Assembly (NCBI GenBank): GCA_002780065.1
Contig: PEWQ01000023.1
Coordinates: 1-7,993 of the forward strand
Direction of reading: 5' to 3'
Length of the DNA stretch: 7,993 bases
Origin: Candidatus Hydrogenedentes bacterium CG07_land_8_20_14_0_80_42_17
Lineage (GTDB): Bacteria > UBA8481
Under the pieces are notes generated by a model that made no database searches, was not told the origin of the DNA, and saw only the letters and a program-made list of their open reading frames with translations. A program made the position numbers and the translations under genes. This document shows, piece after piece, positions 1 to 7,993 of the stretch; the stretch's first letter is position 1; the number at the start of each line of letters is the position of its first letter.

Positions 1-2050
1 CATCGTATGTCGCAGTGTAAACTCCATTCGAACCGCTCAGTACCTTCCAATTTCCTTTTATGTAAGCGGAGCCTCCGCCTTGATATCTGAATGTCACAAC
101 ATTTCCGCTTACTTCAGGTGAAGAATAACTGCCGGTGAATCTCGATATGAATCCGCCATACATCTCAAGCCCCGCACTTGACTTCGCAGTTCGAGCTACA
201 TTGACCGTATACTTCTGACCTGGAGTAAGACTCATACCGCTAAGAGTCAAGACATTGTTATTCAGAGACCATGTTCCGCCGGGATTCGGAGTCACACTAG
301 CCGCGGCCAATGTAGTTGCCGCGTCCATGTTCTGATCGAACGTAATGGTTATTGTTGAACCGCCATACATTGAAGCGTGACTCGGCACAATCGAAGTGAC
401 CATCGGTTCTACATTCGTGGAAGCAGGATCTCGAATCCATACTCCAACTTCATATTTCGGCAGCGTGATTGAAAGATTCGAACCCACTATCGAAGTACCA
501 TCAACAAAATTGTACCACGTTCCTGATAAGCCTGCGTTGAGGGTTGCAGTCTGTGTTACATTCGTTCCGTTTATCGTAACTAATGCATCGTCGCCGCGCT
601 TGAATGCAAATATACCGTTTTGCGGATCGAGCAATGTTGTTCCTGCTCCCAATCCTGTTCCGATTCTCCTCCGAGCTCTCAACATCTTTGCTATCTTCTG
701 ATACAGCCAATACGTCATGTTGAAATTGTCGCCGACTGCATTGTCCCATTCGTAAGCGTGAGAAAACATCGCTGCATAAGCTCCGCGCCCATCAGTGCCT
801 GATGTGTTGAATGCCTGTTCCGAACCGTAATAAGTGCCGCCTACACCCTCAATCATTGTTAAGAGTCCGGTCACTGAAAGCATTCTGTCCTGATCTCCTG
901 AAGCAAGAAATCTCTGAAGATCATGATTGTCCGCAAAATGAAGATTCATGTTAGCGTAAGTCCAAGAGGGACCTTGACCGAAATCCCAATTCGAATTGTT
1001 CATTCCGGAAATGTAGTTTTTCAAACCCCACTGGTCATTGAAGACCATCCACGGCACTCCAGCCATATACATCGGATAATCCATCATGCCGTTCATGACC
1101 TTGTTTCCCGTGCCTGCTTTGTCTCCTGTGTAATAGCCCACAGCATCCTGGCCGCCGCTGTACGCCTCTCCGAACATATAAAAGTTTGTCTTCCCCAGCG
1201 CAGTCGCGGCCGAGCGCAAAGAGGAACAGATCGTTCCCCAATCGTAAATGTTTACGTGCTTTATTGCATCGACTCTGAAACCGTCAATGTCAAATGCCTT
1301 TATCAGGTTGGTGTATTTCGTGATTACATAATTTCTAACATACGCATCCTCGGTCTTAAGGTCGTCCAATCCTACAAGCTCACCGTGTTCCAGTTGAAAC
1401 TGATCGCTCCAATTATTAATGTTTCCGTAATAGTGAAAATCATCTGTTCCAATCGCATCGCCGAATGTTGAACCATACTGCTTACTTGGATCTGAATATT
1501 GCGGAGTGCCATAGCCGCTATAATTGAAGCTCTGGTCCACAAACCAATTTGCAAAGTGATTTGCAACCATGTCCACTATCACATACATTCCGCGAGCATG
1601 AGCCGCATCGACAAGGTCTCTGAAATCCTGAACAGTTCCGAGTTTAGGATCGATGCAATTATAACTCGTCGGAGCATATCCATTCGCTTCCGTTCCCATA
1701 AACGGATTCGAAATCCATACAACATCGTAGCCGAGCGACTTGATATAATCGAGATGCTCTTTTAATCCCTTGAAGTCTCCGCCAATCGTGCGGCGATTTC
1801 CTTCTGTCGGAGGAGTCCCACTCGGCGCACCGTAATCGGTTGAATAGGAATGAGCAGTATTATTTGTAGGATCAGCATCATAAAATCTATCTGTCATTAA
1901 TTGATAGACTGCATATTGCCGCCAATCAGATGGCGAGGTCGTATAAGTGTGTCCAACCCAATCAGAAGGAACTTGCTGATCTGCAAGGTTCCACGCTTCT
2001 GCAGAACCTATAGCAATGAAAATTATTAAGAAGGAGAATATTGTCTTCAA
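1..2050 (-). CDS. Secreted GH13 alpha-amylase family glycoside hydrolase, 3' end beyond window
   Basis: Probably hydrolyses alpha-1,4 bonds of starch or maltodextrin outside the cytoplasm. The 683 visible residues contain all four GH13 signatures: DMVANH (160-165), GFRVDA with nucleophile Asp261, FGEA with acid/base Glu295, and FADNHD ending in Asp377. The barrel is followed by a bacterial Ig-like segment (about 550-645, containing ITFDQNMDAAT) and the start of another beta-rich domain (FRYQGGGSAYIKGNW) cut by the window edge. I chose the TTG at 2050 because AAGGAG lies 7 nt upstream and the protein then begins with a clean signal peptide (MKTIFSFL...GSAEA, cleavage likely before Trp20). The alternative ATG at 2074 overlaps the repressor stop as ATGA but has a weak ribosome site and adds SWRRRVT. 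It follows the LacI gene closely, so co-transcription is likely. Family assignment is firm; exact substrate is not. Confidence 0.93.
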   Translation of the reverse strand, partial: MKTIFSFLIIFIAIGSAEAWNLADQQVPSDWVGHTYTTSPSDWRQYAVYQLMTDRFYDADPTNNTAHSYSTDYGAPSGTPPTEGNRRTIGGDFKGLKEHLDYIKSLGYDVVWISNPFMGTEANGYAPTSYNCIDPKLGTVQDFRDLVDAAHARGMYVIVDMVANHFANWFVDQSFNYSGYGTPQYSDPSKQYGSTFGDAIGTDDFHYYGNINNWSDQFQLEHGELVGLDDLKTEDAYVRNYVITKYTNLIKAFDIDGFRVDAIKHVNIYDWGTICSSLRSAATALGKTNFYMFGEAYSGGQDAVGYYTGDKAGTGNKVMNGMMDYPMYMAGVPWMVFNDQWGLKNYISGMNNSNWDFGQGPSWTYANMNLHFADNHDLQRFLASGDQDRMLSVTGLLTMIEGVGGTYYGSEQAFNTSGTDGRGAYAAMFSHAYEWDNAVGDNFNMTYWLYQKIAKMLRARRRIGTGLGAGTTLLDPQNGIFAFKRGDDALVTINGTNVTQTATLNAGLSGTWYNFVDGTSIVGSNLSITLPKYEVGVWIRDPASTNVEPMVTSIVPSHASMYGGSTITITFDQNMDAATTLAAASVTPNPGGTWSLNNNVLTLSGMSLTPGQKYTVNVARTAKSSAGLEMYGGFISRFTGSYSSPEVSGNVVTFRYQGGGSAYIKGNWKVLSGSNGVYTATYD

Positions 2051-2057
2051 TGTGACT

Positions 2058-2063
2058 CTCCTT
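2058..2063 (-). promoter_or_regulatory. Shine-Dalgarno AAGGAG for the amylase gene
   Basis: AAGGAG on the minus strand ends 7 nt before a TTG codon at 2050. This spacing supports the TTG over the ATG at 2074, for which the site would lie inside the coding sequence. Confidence 0.65.
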
Positions 2064-2070
2064 CTCCAGC

Positions 2071-3165
2071 TCATTTTCTTGTACTCAACTCTGTTGAAAT
2101 ATTCCGACGCTTTTCGATCTTATTTTCGTGCGGCACAGCAGTAGATTCTCTTATGATAAGTTTCGACGGCCAAATTCTTACTTTTGGTTCGTCGTTGCCT
2201 TCGATTAAATCAATAAGTAATCTCACACATTCCCGAGCAATTTCGTAAATAGGCTGTTCAACAGATGTTAGCGCGGGAACTGTCAATCCGGACGCTTCTA
2301 TGTTGTCGCCACCGATAAGTGATACATCTTTCGGCACGGAAATACTCATCTCCTTCAGAGCGTCAAGCACTCCAAATGCCATAACATCGTTCGAAGTAAA
2401 TATTGCTGTCGGAGGCTCGGAAAGACTCATTAAGTTTTTGGTTGCGCGCCGCGTTTCCTCTCGATCAAAATGACCCTCTACTATCAAACTCTCATCAAAT
2501 GAAATTCCCGCATCGGCCAGAGCCTTTAGATATCCAAATTGCCTCTCCCTTGCTGAGAAAGTACTCCACGAACCTGATATGTGCGCAATTCTTCTATGCC
2601 CGAGTTCGATAAGATGACGCGCTGCAATCGCGCCTGCGCCGCGATAATCAGCAATTACTCTGGGAAGTTCGATCCCTTCCAATGTGCTGTTGACAAGCAC
2701 AAAAGGAAAATCTCCATCTGCAAAATCTTTCAAATATTTGTCTTCCAGAGTCGAGCCGAGATACAGCATTCCTCCAATCTCTTTTCGCAAAAAGAGATTG
2801 ATATATTCCTTATTTAGCGCAAATTCGTACGATGCCTTCTTCAGCATCAATCGATAGTCTTCGGCTTCTATCTCATCGTAGATGCCGCTTAATGCTCGAG
2901 CAAAATATTGGTCTTCAAAAACATGACCGAGCTCCGGCAAAACTAAACTTATTGTTTGATTAGTTTTGGCTGAAAGATTCCTCGCGTTTGTATTTGGTTG
3001 ATAACCTAATTCAGAAATTACCTTCAAAACCTTTTCTCTGGTCTTTTCGCTTATCGAAGAATTATTGTTGAGAACGAAAGATACTGTAGTCTTTGAAACT
3101 CCGGCTTCGGCGGCAACTCTTTCTATAGTTATGCCTTGCCTTTTATTATTTTTCTTTTTTGTCAT
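2071..3165 (-). CDS. LacI/GalR-family transcriptional repressor
   Basis: DNA-binding regulator of 364 residues, normal family length. The N-terminal helix-turn-helix (about 12-33, ITIERVAAEAGVSKTTVSFVLN) is followed by the hinge PNTNARNLSAK (57-67), whose Leu64 matches the leucine that LacI proteins insert into the operator minor groove. A periplasmic-binding-protein-like sensor domain follows, including HRRIAHISG, FTSNDVMAFGVLDAL and SVEQP, ending with KLIIRESTA typical of the family. The frame opens at a GTG at 3177, but I prefer the ATG at 3165, which has AGGTG 9 nt upstream, whereas the GTG has no ribosome site. It lies between a small lipoprotein gene and an amylase, so a maltodextrin or related sugar is the likely inducer (inference). 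Candidate operators sit at the upstream promoter, which would make it autoregulated. Confidence 0.95.
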   Translation of the reverse strand: MTKKKNNKRQGITIERVAAEAGVSKTTVSFVLNNNSSISEKTREKVLKVISELGYQPNTNARNLSAKTNQTISLVLPELGHVFEDQYFARALSGIYDEIEAEDYRLMLKKASYEFALNKEYINLFLRKEIGGMLYLGSTLEDKYLKDFADGDFPFVLVNSTLEGIELPRVIADYRGAGAIAARHLIELGHRRIAHISGSWSTFSARERQFGYLKALADAGISFDESLIVEGHFDREETRRATKNLMSLSEPPTAIFTSNDVMAFGVLDALKEMSISVPKDVSLIGGDNIEASGLTVPALTSVEQPIYEIARECVRLLIDLIEGNDEPKVRIWPSKLIIRESTAVPHENKIEKRRNISTELSTRK

Positions 3166-3214
3166 CAATACTCGCACCTAAAAATACATCGCCTTACTCC
3201 CCAAATTTTTTTAT

Positions 3215-3628: not shown

Positions 3629-4213
3629 ATGACATTCAAAAATAAAAAACTTTTCGATTTTATTACGCTGATAAGAATTCCGATTTCATTCGTTATTATC
3701 ATTTCACTTCTCGTAAAAGACTATTTTGATAAAGTAGTTCCTCTCGAAATAACTTCTATGTCAGGTTTTTTTTCTCTATCAATAATTATTTGCGGAGTAT
3801 TAATACGAGCATGGTCGGCTGGAACTATCAAAAAAAGTCAAGAGGTCTCTAGAAGTGGCCCATACTCTATCGTTCGGCATCCACTTTATCTTGGCTCTTT
3901 TCTGATCGCGCTGGGATTCTGTCTTTTGATTAATGACAACATAAGTCTTTTTGTTCTTGTTTTCTTAGCTCTATTAATTTATTTGCCAAAAGTCATTCAA
4001 GAAGAGATGGAACTCACGGAAAAATTCGGAGCAGAATATCTGAATTACAAAAAAGAAGTCTCTGCAATTATTCCATTGCGCTTGTCGAAAAAAATATTTA
4101 CGAAATGGGACAGTTCAAAATATATACAGCATCGAGAATGGAAAGTAGGAATTACCTGCTTATTTTTTATCATACTGCTTGAACTGATTTCAATGCGTAT
4201 CTTGATTCTATAA
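3629..4213 (+). CDS. Membrane methyltransferase of the isoprenylcysteine/phospholipid type
   Basis: Predicted integral inner-membrane protein of 194 residues that probably transfers a methyl group from S-adenosylmethionine to a lipid or other membrane-associated substrate. Hydrophobic segments lie near 13-29, 46-60, 88-100, 103-121 and 172-192. The family signature is present: GPYSIVRHPLYLGS (77-90) with the RHP core, then EE (125-126) and FGAEYLNY (133-140), which form the cofactor pocket in ICMT/PEMT-like enzymes. The C-terminal region after about 150 adds one more membrane helix, longer than minimal family members. No clear ribosome site precedes the ATG; the upstream bases are almost all A and T. 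It is alone on its strand and meets the response-regulator gene tail to tail with 3 bp between stops. The substrate cannot be told from sequence. Confidence 0.85.
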   Translation: MTFKNKKLFDFITLIRIPISFVIIISLLVKDYFDKVVPLEITSMSGFFSLSIIICGVLIRAWSAGTIKKSQEVSRSGPYSIVRHPLYLGSFLIALGFCLLINDNISLFVLVFLALLIYLPKVIQEEMELTEKFGAEYLNYKKEVSAIIPLRLSKKIFTKWDSSKYIQHREWKVGITCLFFIILLELISMRILIL

Positions 4214-4216
4214 TTT

Positions 4217-5566
4217 CTACTTTTCGATTAGTCCGTGCTTTTCCATTCTGTATAAAAGCGCGCTCCTTGTTATTCCAAGCAGTCTGGCGGCATGAGCCTG
4301 ATTTCCTTCGGTTCTCTTCAATGCCTGGCGTATCAATTCGATTTCCAACTCTTCCAGAGATACTCCTGTATCCGGCAATTCGATAAACGCTTTTCCAATT
4401 GCAGCTGATTCGTGCCGCACATTAATTTCGATATGCTCAGATAGAATAATTCCATCTTCAGCAAAGACCATAGCTCTTTCCAAAACATTGTCGAGTTCTC
4501 TAACATTTCCCGGCCAGTCGTAATCCAAAAGAAGTTGCATAGCCGCATTCGATATCTCAGGCGAATCCGAATTCTTTTGTTTCATGAGATGCGTTGCAAG
4601 AATAGAAATATCATCTTTCCGTTCACGAAGAGAAGGCAGATGAATCGGAAAAACATTTATTCGATAAAACAAATCTTCACGAAAAGTTTTATTTTTGATC
4701 ATCTCTTCGAGATTTCGGTTCGTAGCAGTAATCACACGTGCATCGATCTTTATTTCTGTCGATGTGCCGACCGGAGTAACAACCTGTTCCTCTAAAACTC
4801 GAAGAAGTTTAGCCTGAGCATTTAGAGGAAGGTCTCCAATTTCATCTAAAAAAATCGTTCCGCAATCTGCAGAGAGAAAAAACCCCTTTCGATCGCTTAC
4901 TGCACCGGTAAATGCTCCTTTCTTGTGGCCGAATAATTCTGACTCGACAAGATTCTCCGGTATCGCACTGCAATTTACAGCAATAAAAGGTTTTGAAGAA
5001 CGCGAGGATATAGAATGTATTGCTCTCGCCGCAACTTCTTTTCCGGTTCCTGTTTCTCCTGAAAGAAGTACGGTTGTGTTTTGCTCTGCTATGCGTGAAA
5101 CTAATTCGCGCACCTTTAAAATTTGCTTCGAATCTCCAACTATAATTGAACTCAATAATTCCTTCCGTGATTCCGATTGCTGATTCAGTTGTGCATTGGC
5201 CCTGCTTAGTTCGAGCGCATTTCTAATTACGATAAGCAAATGATCATTCGAAACCGGCTTAGTTAAAAAATCGTAAGCATCGGACTTCATCGACTCGACC
5301 GCAAGCTCGACGCTTCCGTAAGCCGTAAGAATGATGACAGGAACTTGAGGCACAATATTTTTTACTTCGCGAAGAAACTCTACTCCGTTCATTCCAGGCA
5401 TCTGAAAATCAGTTAGTATGACTTCAGGCAATTCCTCCTGTAGAGCTTTCAGAGCATTCTCCGCATAAGGAAATTCCCTTACTTCATGTCCTTCATCTCT
5501 CATGACAGCACTAAGAATATGTCGAAGATTGTTGTCATCTTCTATGAACCAAATTTTTCCGCTCAT
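4217..5566 (-). CDS. NtrC-family sigma54-dependent response regulator
   Basis: Phosphorylation-controlled activator of sigma54 RNA polymerase, 449 residues and complete. The receiver domain has the acidic pair Asp10/Asp11, phospho-acceptor Asp53 (TDFQMPGMNG), Thr81 and Lys103. The AAA+ domain has Walker A GETGTGKE (170-177), the sigma54-contacting GAFTGA loop (217-222) and Walker B IFLDEI (238-243), followed by FREDLFYRINVF and WPGNVRELDN. A Fis-type helix-turn-helix closes the protein (GNQAHAARLLGITRSALLYR, 421-440). I start at the ATG 5 nt after the kinase stop. A GTG at 5575 would overlap that stop as GTGA and has GAGG 10 nt upstream, so it is a real alternative. The longer open frame to 5629 lies inside the kinase gene and is unlikely. 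It should act on the paired sigma54 promoters at 6646-6661 and 6823-6838 (inference). Confidence 0.95.
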   Translation of the reverse strand: MSGKIWFIEDDNNLRHILSAVMRDEGHEVREFPYAENALKALQEELPEVILTDFQMPGMNGVEFLREVKNIVPQVPVIILTAYGSVELAVESMKSDAYDFLTKPVSNDHLLIVIRNALELSRANAQLNQQSESRKELLSSIIVGDSKQILKVRELVSRIAEQNTTVLLSGETGTGKEVAARAIHSISSRSSKPFIAVNCSAIPENLVESELFGHKKGAFTGAVSDRKGFFLSADCGTIFLDEIGDLPLNAQAKLLRVLEEQVVTPVGTSTEIKIDARVITATNRNLEEMIKNKTFREDLFYRINVFPIHLPSLRERKDDISILATHLMKQKNSDSPEISNAAMQLLLDYDWPGNVRELDNVLERAMVFAEDGIILSEHIEINVRHESAAIGKAFIELPDTGVSLEELEIELIRQALKRTEGNQAHAARLLGITRSALLYRMEKHGLIEK

Positions 5567-5571
5567 CTTTG

Positions 5572-6603
5572 TCACGACTTTGGAACCTCGATTACAAATT
5601 TTGCTCCGCCAAGTAAACTCTCTTCGCAATAAATTCTTCCGCCATGCGCCTCCACGATTTTTTTCGAAATCGGAAGTCCTAATCCTGTTCCGCCTTTCCG
5701 CTTCGAACGGAACGGCTCAAATATTTTCGTGCGCTCCGATTCTTCTACTCCCGGCCCTGAATCTTCAATGGATATCGAAAGAAGATGGTAAATATCTGCA
5801 ACGGAAATTTTTATTTTCCCGGTTTTTCCAGCCGCTTCTACAGCATTTCCTATAACATTCACTAATACCTGCTCAATCTGTAAAGGATCACAAACGCAAC
5901 TCGAAATATCAGCCGGCGCATATATTTCCACTTGCGGCATTTCATCACCACGAGCCATTCCTATTCGTTCTAATGTGACTTCAAGCAATTTTGTTATGTC
6001 CGTTTCTATTTTATGGGTAACCTGCGGCTTCGCTAAAGAAAGAAATTCTCCGGCGAATTTATCGAGCCGTTTCGCTTCGTCATGCACGATTGAAAGAATT
6101 TCATCCACATTGAGCCCAACACTTTTCTTTTTCAAAAGTTCAACAGCGCCTTCGATCGTTTGAACAGGGTTTTTTATCTCATGAACCACTCCTGCCGCGA
6201 ATTCACCGAGCAAAGCAAGCCGTTTCGACTCTTCCAATTTCTCTTCCGCTTTGATTCTGAGATGAACAAGCCAGCCTGCAATCCAACCTACAGCATTGTA
6301 TAAAACAAACTCTAGATAAATATTCAGCTCTGTATTTGTGTGATCCATTCCAAAACCCCAAATAGCAAAAGGAAGATACAAAAAAGTTATCAATATAGGA
6401 GCGATAATTCCTCCTTGAATTTCAAACCATATTGCTGACAGGATTATCGGAATGTAATTGAGCCTGTAATGAAGCGAATGGAATTGAGAATGCTCGCTGA
6501 TCATTTTAAAATGGTAAAAAGCAATAAGGAGCGCAGATGCAAATACAATTATGAATTGAATTACTTTCGTTCGTTTCATATCAGGTGATTCTATTGCAGG
6601 CAC
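5572..6603 (-). CDS. Membrane sensor histidine kinase partnering the NtrC-type regulator
   Basis: Two-component sensor, about 343 residues. The N-terminal third is hydrophobic, with likely membrane segments at about 14-32, 48-60, 64-84 and 95-115 and only short loops, so no periplasmic sensing domain is evident. The kinase core is complete: H box FAAGVVHEIKNP with phospho-acceptor His141, N box EQVLVNVIGNAVEA (Asn249/Asn253), DSGPG (from Asp281), FEPF (295-298) and GTGLGL (305-310). It resembles NtrB/AtoS/ZraS-type kinases that pair with sigma54 activators. The frame extends to an ATG at 6633, but the sigma54 promoter predicts transcription from about 6635, leaving almost no leader. I therefore chose the GTG at 6603, which has GGAG 5 nt upstream; an ATG at 6579 (MKRTKVIQF) is also plausible. 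The regulator gene follows by 5 nt, so the two are co-transcribed. Confidence 0.92.
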   Translation of the reverse strand: MPAIESPDMKRTKVIQFIIVFASALLIAFYHFKMISEHSQFHSLHYRLNYIPIILSAIWFEIQGGIIAPILITFLYLPFAIWGFGMDHTNTELNIYLEFVLYNAVGWIAGWLVHLRIKAEEKLEESKRLALLGEFAAGVVHEIKNPVQTIEGAVELLKKKSVGLNVDEILSIVHDEAKRLDKFAGEFLSLAKPQVTHKIETDITKLLEVTLERIGMARGDEMPQVEIYAPADISSCVCDPLQIEQVLVNVIGNAVEAAGKTGKIKISVADIYHLLSISIEDSGPGVEESERTKIFEPFRSKRKGGTGLGLPISKKIVEAHGGRIYCEESLLGGAKFVIEVPKS

Positions 6604-6645
6604 TGAGTCTCCGCAAGAAAGAGAAGTATTCATAATAATAGTAAA

Positions 6646-6661
6646 AGCAAAATGAATGCCA
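6646..6661 (-). promoter_or_regulatory. Sigma54 (-24/-12) promoter for the kinase-regulator operon
   Basis: Minus strand TGGCAT-TCATT-TTGCT: GG (-24) and GC (-12) are separated by exactly 10 bases, matching the TGGCAC-N5-TTGCW consensus except for the sixth base. It is directly upstream of the kinase gene, whose partner is a sigma54 activator, with transcription expected near 6635. Confidence 0.75.
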
Positions 6662-6690
6662 CGATCTGTTAACGACTTATAATCAAATAG

Positions 6691-6708
6691 TCGAACACAT
6701 TGGTTCGA
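6691..6708. promoter_or_regulatory. Inverted repeat TCGAAC-N6-GTTCGA
   Basis: Perfect 6-bp arms around ACATTG. It lies between the two divergent sigma54 promoters, centred about 65 bp upstream of the kinase start site and 150 bp upstream of the other. It could be an enhancer or accessory-regulator site; its sequence differs from the palindrome at 6735-6752, although GTTCGA recurs at 6757-6762. Confidence 0.45.
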
Positions 6709-6734
6709 AGGGCAAAGACATAAGTTCGCCCCTA

Positions 6735-6752
6735 CTGTCCGATATCAGACAG
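6735..6752. promoter_or_regulatory. 18-bp near-palindrome, candidate activator enhancer site
   Basis: CTGTCCGATATCAGACAG matches its reverse complement at 16 of 18 bases. Its centre is about 108 bp from the predicted kinase start site and about 105 bp from the predicted start of the divergent gene. That is the usual range for enhancer sites of NtrC-type activators and allows one site to serve both promoters. Confidence 0.6.
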
Positions 6753-6754
6753 CT

Positions 6755-6769
6755 CTGTTCGAATTGACA
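6755..6769. promoter_or_regulatory. Second, degenerate copy of the enhancer half-site
   Basis: CTGTTCGAATTGACA repeats the CTGTYCGA...GACA pattern of the 6735-6752 palindrome, starting 20 bp further on (about two helical turns), but with two fewer bases between the halves. Tandem strong and weak sites are common for NtrC-like activators. Suggestive only. Confidence 0.4.
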
Positions 6770-6822
6770 CACTTTTATTAACTCTATTCCAGCGTATCCG
6801 CTTATTTTTCATAAAACTTCTT

Positions 6823-6838
6823 CGGCATAGATGTTGCT
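6823..6838 (+). promoter_or_regulatory. Sigma54 (-24/-12) promoter for the LysM/efflux gene
   Basis: CGGCAT-AGATG-TTGCT, with GG and GC 10 bases apart. It shares GGCAT-N5-TTGCTTT with the divergent promoter at 6646-6661. Transcription is expected near 6849, giving a leader of about 52 nt that ends in a ribosome site before the ATG at 6901. Confidence 0.72.
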
Positions 6839-6891
6839 TTATATCTTCATCTAAAATGTTAATTGACAGTAAAAACATTAAGTTTGAGAAT

Positions 6892-6900: not shown

Positions 6901-7993
6901 ATGAAAATAACTCGACAGATAATTATCAAACTTGTCGAAACAGCTATTCTCTCATTCTTGATTGTTATTTTTACAGGAACAATTTATTCCTTAGAGCGTG
7001 AGATCGAAATTAAAGTCGGCGACACTCTCTACAAAATTGCACGGGAAAAGCTCGGCGATTCAAAGCGCTGGAATGAAATTGCCGCGCTGAACGGAATCGA
7101 AGCACCTTACAACATTAAAGTTGGAGATAAACTATTGTTGCCGCAGATTAATGAATCACATATCGACGTATCAAATGGACTCATGAGAGCGGCTGCGGAA
7201 AATTCGTCTTCCCCCCTAAGCGAAACCGCACCGTTCTCGCCAATCAAAGAGACAACTGACATAAATAATCAAACTAATAGAAATTTCAATGTATCATCTA
7301 ATTTGCATCAGAGTGAAATTTCTGACACCGAGTTAACCGATACTAATATTCAGAAAATTACATCACTTAAACCCAGCTTCGTCCCCACTTTTGTCGAGCC
7401 TCTTGGCCCGCTCATCACCGGTCTGCGCGCGCATAATCCCTCCATTCACGCCGCCGAGGAAGCGGCTCGCGCGGCCGCGTATCGGCCCTCGCAGGCAGGC
7501 GCCCTGCCGGACCCGATGCTACGAACCGCGGTGCGATTCGACCAACAGCGCGAGGTCATGATCGACAACACCGGCATGGTCAGCGTCCGGACGGAACGGA
7601 TGACGATGCCCATGTTCCAAATCAGCCAGATGATTCCCTTGGGCAAACTCGGCCCCATGAGCAATCTCGAACGCGCGATGGCGGGAACGTATCTGGAGAT
7701 GACGAGCATGGAGCGCGCCACGAAAGAACGCCAACTGAAAACCGCGTATGCGGAACTTTATTACATCGACCAGGCCGCCCGAACGTGCCTGCAGATTCGT
7801 GAGGTTCTTAAACTTCTGGTGGCCAGCACGGAGGCGATGTATCGCGTCGGCGAGGCGCGACAGTCCGATGTGTTCCGCGCGCAACTTGAAATCTCCATGC
7901 TCTCGGATCGCCTGCTGATGCTGGAAGGCCGTCGCGGCGCCACGGTTTCCACCATCAACGTGCTTCTTGACCGCTCGGAATCCGAACGCGTCG
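6901..7993 (+). CDS. LysM domain joined in frame to a TolC/CusC-like outer-membrane efflux segment, 3' end beyond window
   Basis: One uninterrupted frame of 364 visible residues. Residues 1-30 form a basic start and a hydrophobic signal or anchor segment. Residues 35-81 are a LysM peptidoglycan-binding domain (IKVGDTLYKIAREKLGD...VGDKLLLP). Residues 84-157 are a polar linker rich in Ser, Asn, Thr and Glu. From about 161 the protein resembles outer-membrane efflux (TolC/CusC family) proteins: LRAHNPSIHAAEEAARAA, QAGALPDPM, QMIPLGKLGPMSNLE, AYAELYYID, YRVGEARQSDVFRAQLE, with long helices that would form the periplasmic barrel. DNA composition changes abruptly at about 7372, so the last 600 bases look foreign to the rest of the window. 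The N-terminal part, its ribosome site and its sigma54 promoter belong with the local genome. The joined product may be a real fusion or the result of a false contig join. The efflux substrate is unknown. Confidence 0.7.
   Translation, partial: MKITRQIIIKLVETAILSFLIVIFTGTIYSLEREIEIKVGDTLYKIAREKLGDSKRWNEIAALNGIEAPYNIKVGDKLLLPQINESHIDVSNGLMRAAAENSSSPLSETAPFSPIKETTDINNQTNRNFNVSSNLHQSEISDTELTDTNIQKITSLKPSFVPTFVEPLGPLITGLRAHNPSIHAAEEAARAAAYRPSQAGALPDPMLRTAVRFDQQREVMIDNTGMVSVRTERMTMPMFQISQMIPLGKLGPMSNLERAMAGTYLEMTSMERATKERQLKTAYAELYYIDQAARTCLQIREVLKLLVASTEAMYRVGEARQSDVFRAQLEISMLSDRLLMLEGRRGATVSTINVLLDRSESERV
7365..7390. other. Sharp base-composition breakpoint inside an open frame
   Basis: Hand counts per 60-base line: 7261-7320 has 13 G/C, 7321-7380 has 22, 7381-7440 has 38, 7441-7500 has 45 and 7501-7560 has 40. 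Codons switch from A/T-ending (ATT, AAA, AAT) to G/C-ending (GCG, CGC, GTC, CTC) at about residue 158. No terminal inverted repeats, target duplication or transposase gene is seen at the junction. Confidence 0.85.

Follow-up and report, generated by a model that had tools for sequence, protein, structure and literature searches.

A divergent sigma54-type promoter pair predicted to let a two-component system activate both itself and a LysM-bearing, probably metal-type efflux channel

Introduction

The copper/silver efflux locus CusRS-CusCFBA of Escherichia coli places a CusC-type outer-membrane channel under two-component control, with the regulator and target genes being divergent and CusR being a regulator of the OmpR type. 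In zraSR/zraP of Escherichia coli and Salmonella, divergent sigma54 promoters drive a kinase with its NtrC-type regulator and a single exported protein (PMC4987338). ZraSR has a local regulon, is autoregulated and is regarded as being linked to envelope stress (PMC7657598). Sigma54 promoters that diverge from a common region containing palindromic activator sites are also known from the orp operons of Desulfovibrio vulgaris (DVU2106), whose targets are the operons for the orange protein complex and for which IHF sites have been shown to be needed (PMC3897727). Palindromes of the form TGTC(N)10GACA are, in turn, the sites of GlrR (PMC4987338). A literature search for sigma54 or NtrC-type control of cus operons found no description, which does not prove its absence.

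The locus analysed here has features in common with each of these systems. It lies on contig C72, the whole of which (7993 bp) is hereafter termed the window, in a fragmented genome of 2.39 Mb (207 contigs, 87% complete). As in zraSR/zraP, predicted divergent sigma54 promoters serve a kinase-regulator pair and its target; the earlier note had likened the locus to this layout, adding that the kinase and target differ, and both the published arrangement (PMC4987338) and the differences agree with its account. The kinase scores 130.6 against the ZraS cut-off of 479 and the regulator 358 against the ZraR cut-off of 760 bits, while its target is not the zinc-binding chaperone ZraP but an efflux channel with a LysM domain. 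Because the scores fall far below these cut-offs and the target is different, we regard the system as one that is predicted to work like zraSR/zraP but is not a member of that family. With CusRS-CusCFBA it shares two-component control of a CusC-type outer-membrane channel from divergent genes, but its regulator is of the NtrC type, with a sigma54-activator domain and a Fis helix-turn-helix (HTH), its promoters are of the sigma54 type and its channel carries a LysM domain. The likeness to GlrKR lies in an NtrC-type response regulator and TGTC...GACA palindromic sites; however, the spacer here is 8, the GlrKR targets are the small RNAs glmY/glmZ and the regulator reaches 377 where the GlrR cut-off is 763. 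Unlike in the orp operons, the shared control region here holds no exact match to an IHF site, one-mismatch matches being at chance level, and the activator comes with a kinase.

Results and discussion

Genes of the window

The sensor histidine kinase (5572..6633, minus strand) was delineated using Pfam, an alignment of homologues (A1) and a structure model (mean pLDDT 77, pTM 0.50), and comprises a four-helix membrane sensor followed by HisKA and HATPase domains. The NtrC-type response regulator (4217..5566, minus strand) is composed, according to Pfam, of a receiver domain, a sigma54-activator AAA+ domain with the GAFTGA motif and a Fis-type HTH, and its sigma54-activator domain is intact. 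Besides RpoN, the genome encodes about eight clear sigma54 activators. Elsewhere in the window, a secreted alpha-amylase-like protein adjoins a LacI-family regulator in what looks like an ordinary sugar-use locus (2-3177), and a membrane methyltransferase of the PEMT/ICMT family (3629-4213) is convergent with the regulator gene. An Rfam search of the window found no RNA elements.

A divergent pair of sigma54-type promoters

Between the kinase gene and the LysM-channel gene lie two predicted promoters facing away from each other, each with GG-N10-GC spacing. The minus-strand site TGGCATTCATTTTGCTTT (6644..6661) reads into the kinase-regulator genes with a predicted start at about 6635, and the plus-strand site CGGCATAGATGTTGCTTT (6823..6840) reads into the LysM-channel gene with a predicted start at about 6849. 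When sigma54 -24/-12 matches across the whole window were ranked with a hand-weighted matrix, the minus site came first and the plus site second. Each has a single mismatch to the consensus TGGCAYRNNNNTTGCW (in the plus promoter, a C replaces the T before GG), whereas all other matches in the window have two. The best score was equalled in 4 of 1000 dinucleotide shuffles of the intergenic stretch (0.4%) and the second-best in none of the 1000; hence, the presence of GG-N10-GC on both strands is above chance. The promoter region has few matches of the sigma70 type, and these are weak. In pattern searches of the genome, TGGCA-N6-TTGCW occurs 16 times as against 4 for the reversed pattern, and several copies directly precede genes that are plausible targets of sigma54, among them a glutamine synthetase (L010) and a type IV pilin (L017), both named from sequence. 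These results bear out the claim of two -24/-12 promoters on opposite strands with GGCAT-N5-TTGCTTT in common, a pattern that both sites fit, and support the assignment of one to the kinase and NtrC-type regulator and of the other to the exported LysM/efflux protein.

Candidate enhancers in the shared control region

The region between the promoters had been proposed to hold a shared enhancer, with no site named. We found in it the palindrome CTGTCCGATATCAGACAG (TGTC-N8-GACA; 6735..6752), a candidate enhancer lying about 106-109 bp upstream of either predicted start. It is centred on 6743.5, and the midpoint of the predicted starts (6635 and 6849) falls at 6742, 1.5 bp away. With 8 of its 9 pairs matched, a palindrome this good is, taken alone, found in about 5% of shuffles, so that its weight rests on its position and on its sequence, of which the genome holds a single exact copy. 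A second candidate enhancer, the 16-mer TGTTCGAATTGACACA of the TGT-N10-ACA type (6756..6771, plus strand), is located 20 bp from the first. The pattern TGTYCGANNTNANACA, which was derived from these two candidates themselves, has one further exact match in the genome. A TCGAAC-N6-GTTCGA element (6691..6708) with further half-sites might play an accessory role. All three copies of the TGTYCGA half-site in the window cluster in the shared control region, and the four copies of GTYCGA in its 161-bp core, a motif picked after looking, were matched in number by 0 of 3000 shuffles. A genome-wide search for a regulon sharing the palindrome CTGTCCGATATCAGACAG yielded nothing above background.

The LysM-channel gene and its composition break

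The plus-strand gene (6901..7992) begins 52 nt after the predicted start and is cut by the contig end. It encodes an exported protein combining a LysM domain (Pfam, residues 36-81) with an outer-membrane efflux channel of the CusC clade (OEP, residues 176-341; PF02321, 33 bits against a cut-off of 22). At 7372 there is a sharp break within one reading frame, where the GC content rises from 38% to 62%, and the contig ends 620 bp later. The part beyond the break (7372..7993, plus strand) has a GC3 of 0.74, as against a maximum of 0.545 among 265 windows of its own genome. The channel part is therefore foreign in composition and would represent either a recent transfer or an assembly join. Neither 386 genomes nor plasmids yielded a donor for it above 37% identity, and at the DNA level plasmids and phages gave no match.

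These features raise the question of whether the promoter pair is real but its output has been misread: a native LysM start could have been joined to a channel fragment of another organism, with the true output being something else, such as an unknown LysM protein or another LysM-channel. The sharpness of the break, its closeness to the contig end and the mere 35-37% identity of the best channel homologues, with the donor not found, are in line with such a join. Against it, the break is in frame and falls between the linker and the channel domain, giving the LysM-linker-channel layout that is native to the lineage, and CusC-clade channels stand beside this kind of regulator pair in other lineages too. 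These features would seldom come together in a random join, whereas a join with a related strain could yield them, and we consider this alternative somewhat unlikely.

That the combination of LysM and channel must itself be an artefact was dropped, as the fusion recurs at the head of three other efflux operons of this genome and twice more in G001 (L183, L191), the other genome of the phylum that was compared. In the former set, one lies behind a TetR-type gene (C170, L147), one is fused in frame to an ArsR-type domain (C122, L149) and one forms an operon with ABC-transporter genes (C16, L148). Outer-membrane channels with an N-terminal LysM domain are hence recurrent in the phylum, where they head efflux operons and possibly constitute wall-tethered channels. 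The ArsR-type case is a single open frame of 656 aa (L149:263-2233) spanning the ArsR-type domain, LysM and channel, and could be a true fusion or two genes; on contig C98 of G001 an ArsR gene is followed by a LysM gene. Two RND pumps of full length were found in the genome; they belong to other LysM-channel operons, and a separate cusA was not found. In the window the contig ends inside the channel gene, and the downstream position of cusB/cusA would lie beyond the contig. The gene at 6901 had been named as the direct output of the switch. The local nature of the output stands, because the palindrome CTGTCCGATATCAGACAG occurs nowhere else in the genome; what has to be amended is that the gene is incomplete and its 3' part foreign in composition.

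Association with metal efflux in other lineages

The nearest channel homologues adjoin metal-type CusB/CusA genes: an adaptor gene comes next in all eight examined, and six of these adaptors have a heavy-metal-binding motif. We compared the surroundings of 26 channel genes of this kind. Those of three (G074, G215 and G059, from two lineages) include both an NtrC-type regulator and a kinase bearing the same sensor (E about 1e-26). G074 and G215, which belong to one genus of a lineage other than that of the window, match the sensor family with E values of 5e-26 and 5e-27, and in both the kinase and regulator adjoin cusCBA; G059 is similar in gene order, except that other genes intervene. The regulators are 45% (G074) and 44% (G059) identical to that of the window.

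The parallels extend to the DNA before the cus operons. In G074 and G215, tandem TGT-N10-ACA sites, TGTAGAATATTCTACA and TGTAGAATATGCCACA, are conserved before the operon, and the candidate enhancers of the window are of this same type. TGTAGAATATTCTACA is a perfect palindrome and lies before cusCBA (L247:7840-8200 and L248:7240-7610). A sigma54-like site, TGGCACGGCAGTTG, is conserved directly before the first cus gene of both; the sites there end in TTGTT/TTGAT and not in TTGCW. G059 has a TGGCACG...TTGTT site between regulator and channel, and an enhancer pair was not found in that region. Among deltaproteobacteria, this sensor is found in some kinases that are encoded next to copper P-type ATPases or a multicopper oxidase, and in others that are not.

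The earlier note had proposed an autoamplifying envelope-response switch. Its self-activating, zraSR/zraP-like layout is retained here, but the envelope response gives way in view of the CusC-clade channel and the cusCBA neighbours. A version of the same sigma54 autoactivating switch in which the signal is envelope or periplasmic stress, and the LysM channel acts in wall or envelope repair or in drug export, could draw on LysM being a wall-binding domain, on the envelope-stress link of ZraSR (PMC7657598) and on the other LysM-channel operons of the genome, which carry RND or ABC pumps with TetR- or ArsR-type regulators. It is nevertheless unlikely, as the channel belongs to the CusC clade, its nearest homologues have metal-type neighbours, and the same-sensor kinase and NtrC-type regulator are found beside cusCBA in other lineages. 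Metal efflux is thus the most likely output, the preference deriving from the clade of the channel together with the homologous kinase-regulator pairs beside cusCBA elsewhere.

Predicted autoactivation and the relatives of the kinase-regulator pair

Only 2 bases separate the predicted minus-strand start (about 6635) from the first ATG (6633) of the kinase open reading frame, so the kinase is expected to start further inside it. The true start is probably the GTG at 6603, which stands behind GGAG, or the ATG at 6579, near which most homologues begin in alignment A1.

The promoter pair had been expected to recur in related genomes. G001, which shares the order but not the family of the source organism and was the sole other genome of the phylum compared, departs from this expectation. 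The kinase and regulator are retained there as a pair (41% and 53% identity), but the kinase follows another gene by 43 bp and the divergent layout is absent. No sigma54-like site was found on the contig with the pair, and the enhancer palindrome has only two-mismatch matches in this genome, none of them at the orthologous pair. Since G001 is no close relative, what the comparison shows is that the divergent layout is not found throughout the phylum, and not that it lacks a function. The homologous kinase-regulator genes of G001, G074 and G215 have no clear sigma54-like site just upstream; as far as tested, the self-activating layout is specific to the window. Sigma54 regulation at the plus-strand promoter only, with the kinase genes read from another promoter and the minus site giving no strong autoactivation, would accommodate these homologues and the 2-bp distance to the first ATG, but is improbable in that the minus site outscores the plus site, is equally far from the palindrome, and is compatible with a kinase start at 6603 or 6579.

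A proposed switch and its implications

Taken together, these observations favour a self-amplifying two-component sigma54 switch for metal-type efflux, to which we assign a probability of roughly 60%. The predicted promoters and their geometry, the protein domains, the genome-unique palindrome and the association of homologous genes elsewhere can be read from the genomes themselves; the order of events proposed below is built on them. The membrane kinase would sense a toxic metal, perhaps copper, silver or similar, and phosphorylate the NtrC-type regulator, which would assemble on the tandem TGT-N10-ACA sites (6735-6771). Through looping of the DNA, it would then drive RpoN polymerase to open, at the expense of ATP, at each of the divergent promoters. 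The minus promoter would raise the levels of kinase and regulator, amounting to autoactivation, and the plus promoter those of the LysM-CusC-type channel, whose gene is probably the first in a cusCBA-like efflux operon, the rest of it having been lost beyond the contig end.

More broadly, it is possible, and we put this forward tentatively, that a hitherto undescribed NtrC-type, sigma54-dependent two-component family, marked by the four-helix sensor and tandem TGT-N10-ACA sites, controls cus-type efflux in several lineages. In the deep-branching lineage studied here it would have taken a divergent, self-amplifying form with a LysM-bearing channel. Sigma54 promoters are silent without their activator; therefore, a metal-efflux gene under such control would be expressed at a very low level in its off-state and would be switched on steeply. 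The system, if confirmed, would extend the zra-like divergent layout to metal efflux as an output, its sensor family and tandem TGT-N10-ACA motif would offer a means of finding further members, and a lineage that has been poorly sampled would gain a regulatory handle. The LysM-channel fusion, moreover, raises the question of whether an efflux channel might be tied to the cell wall.
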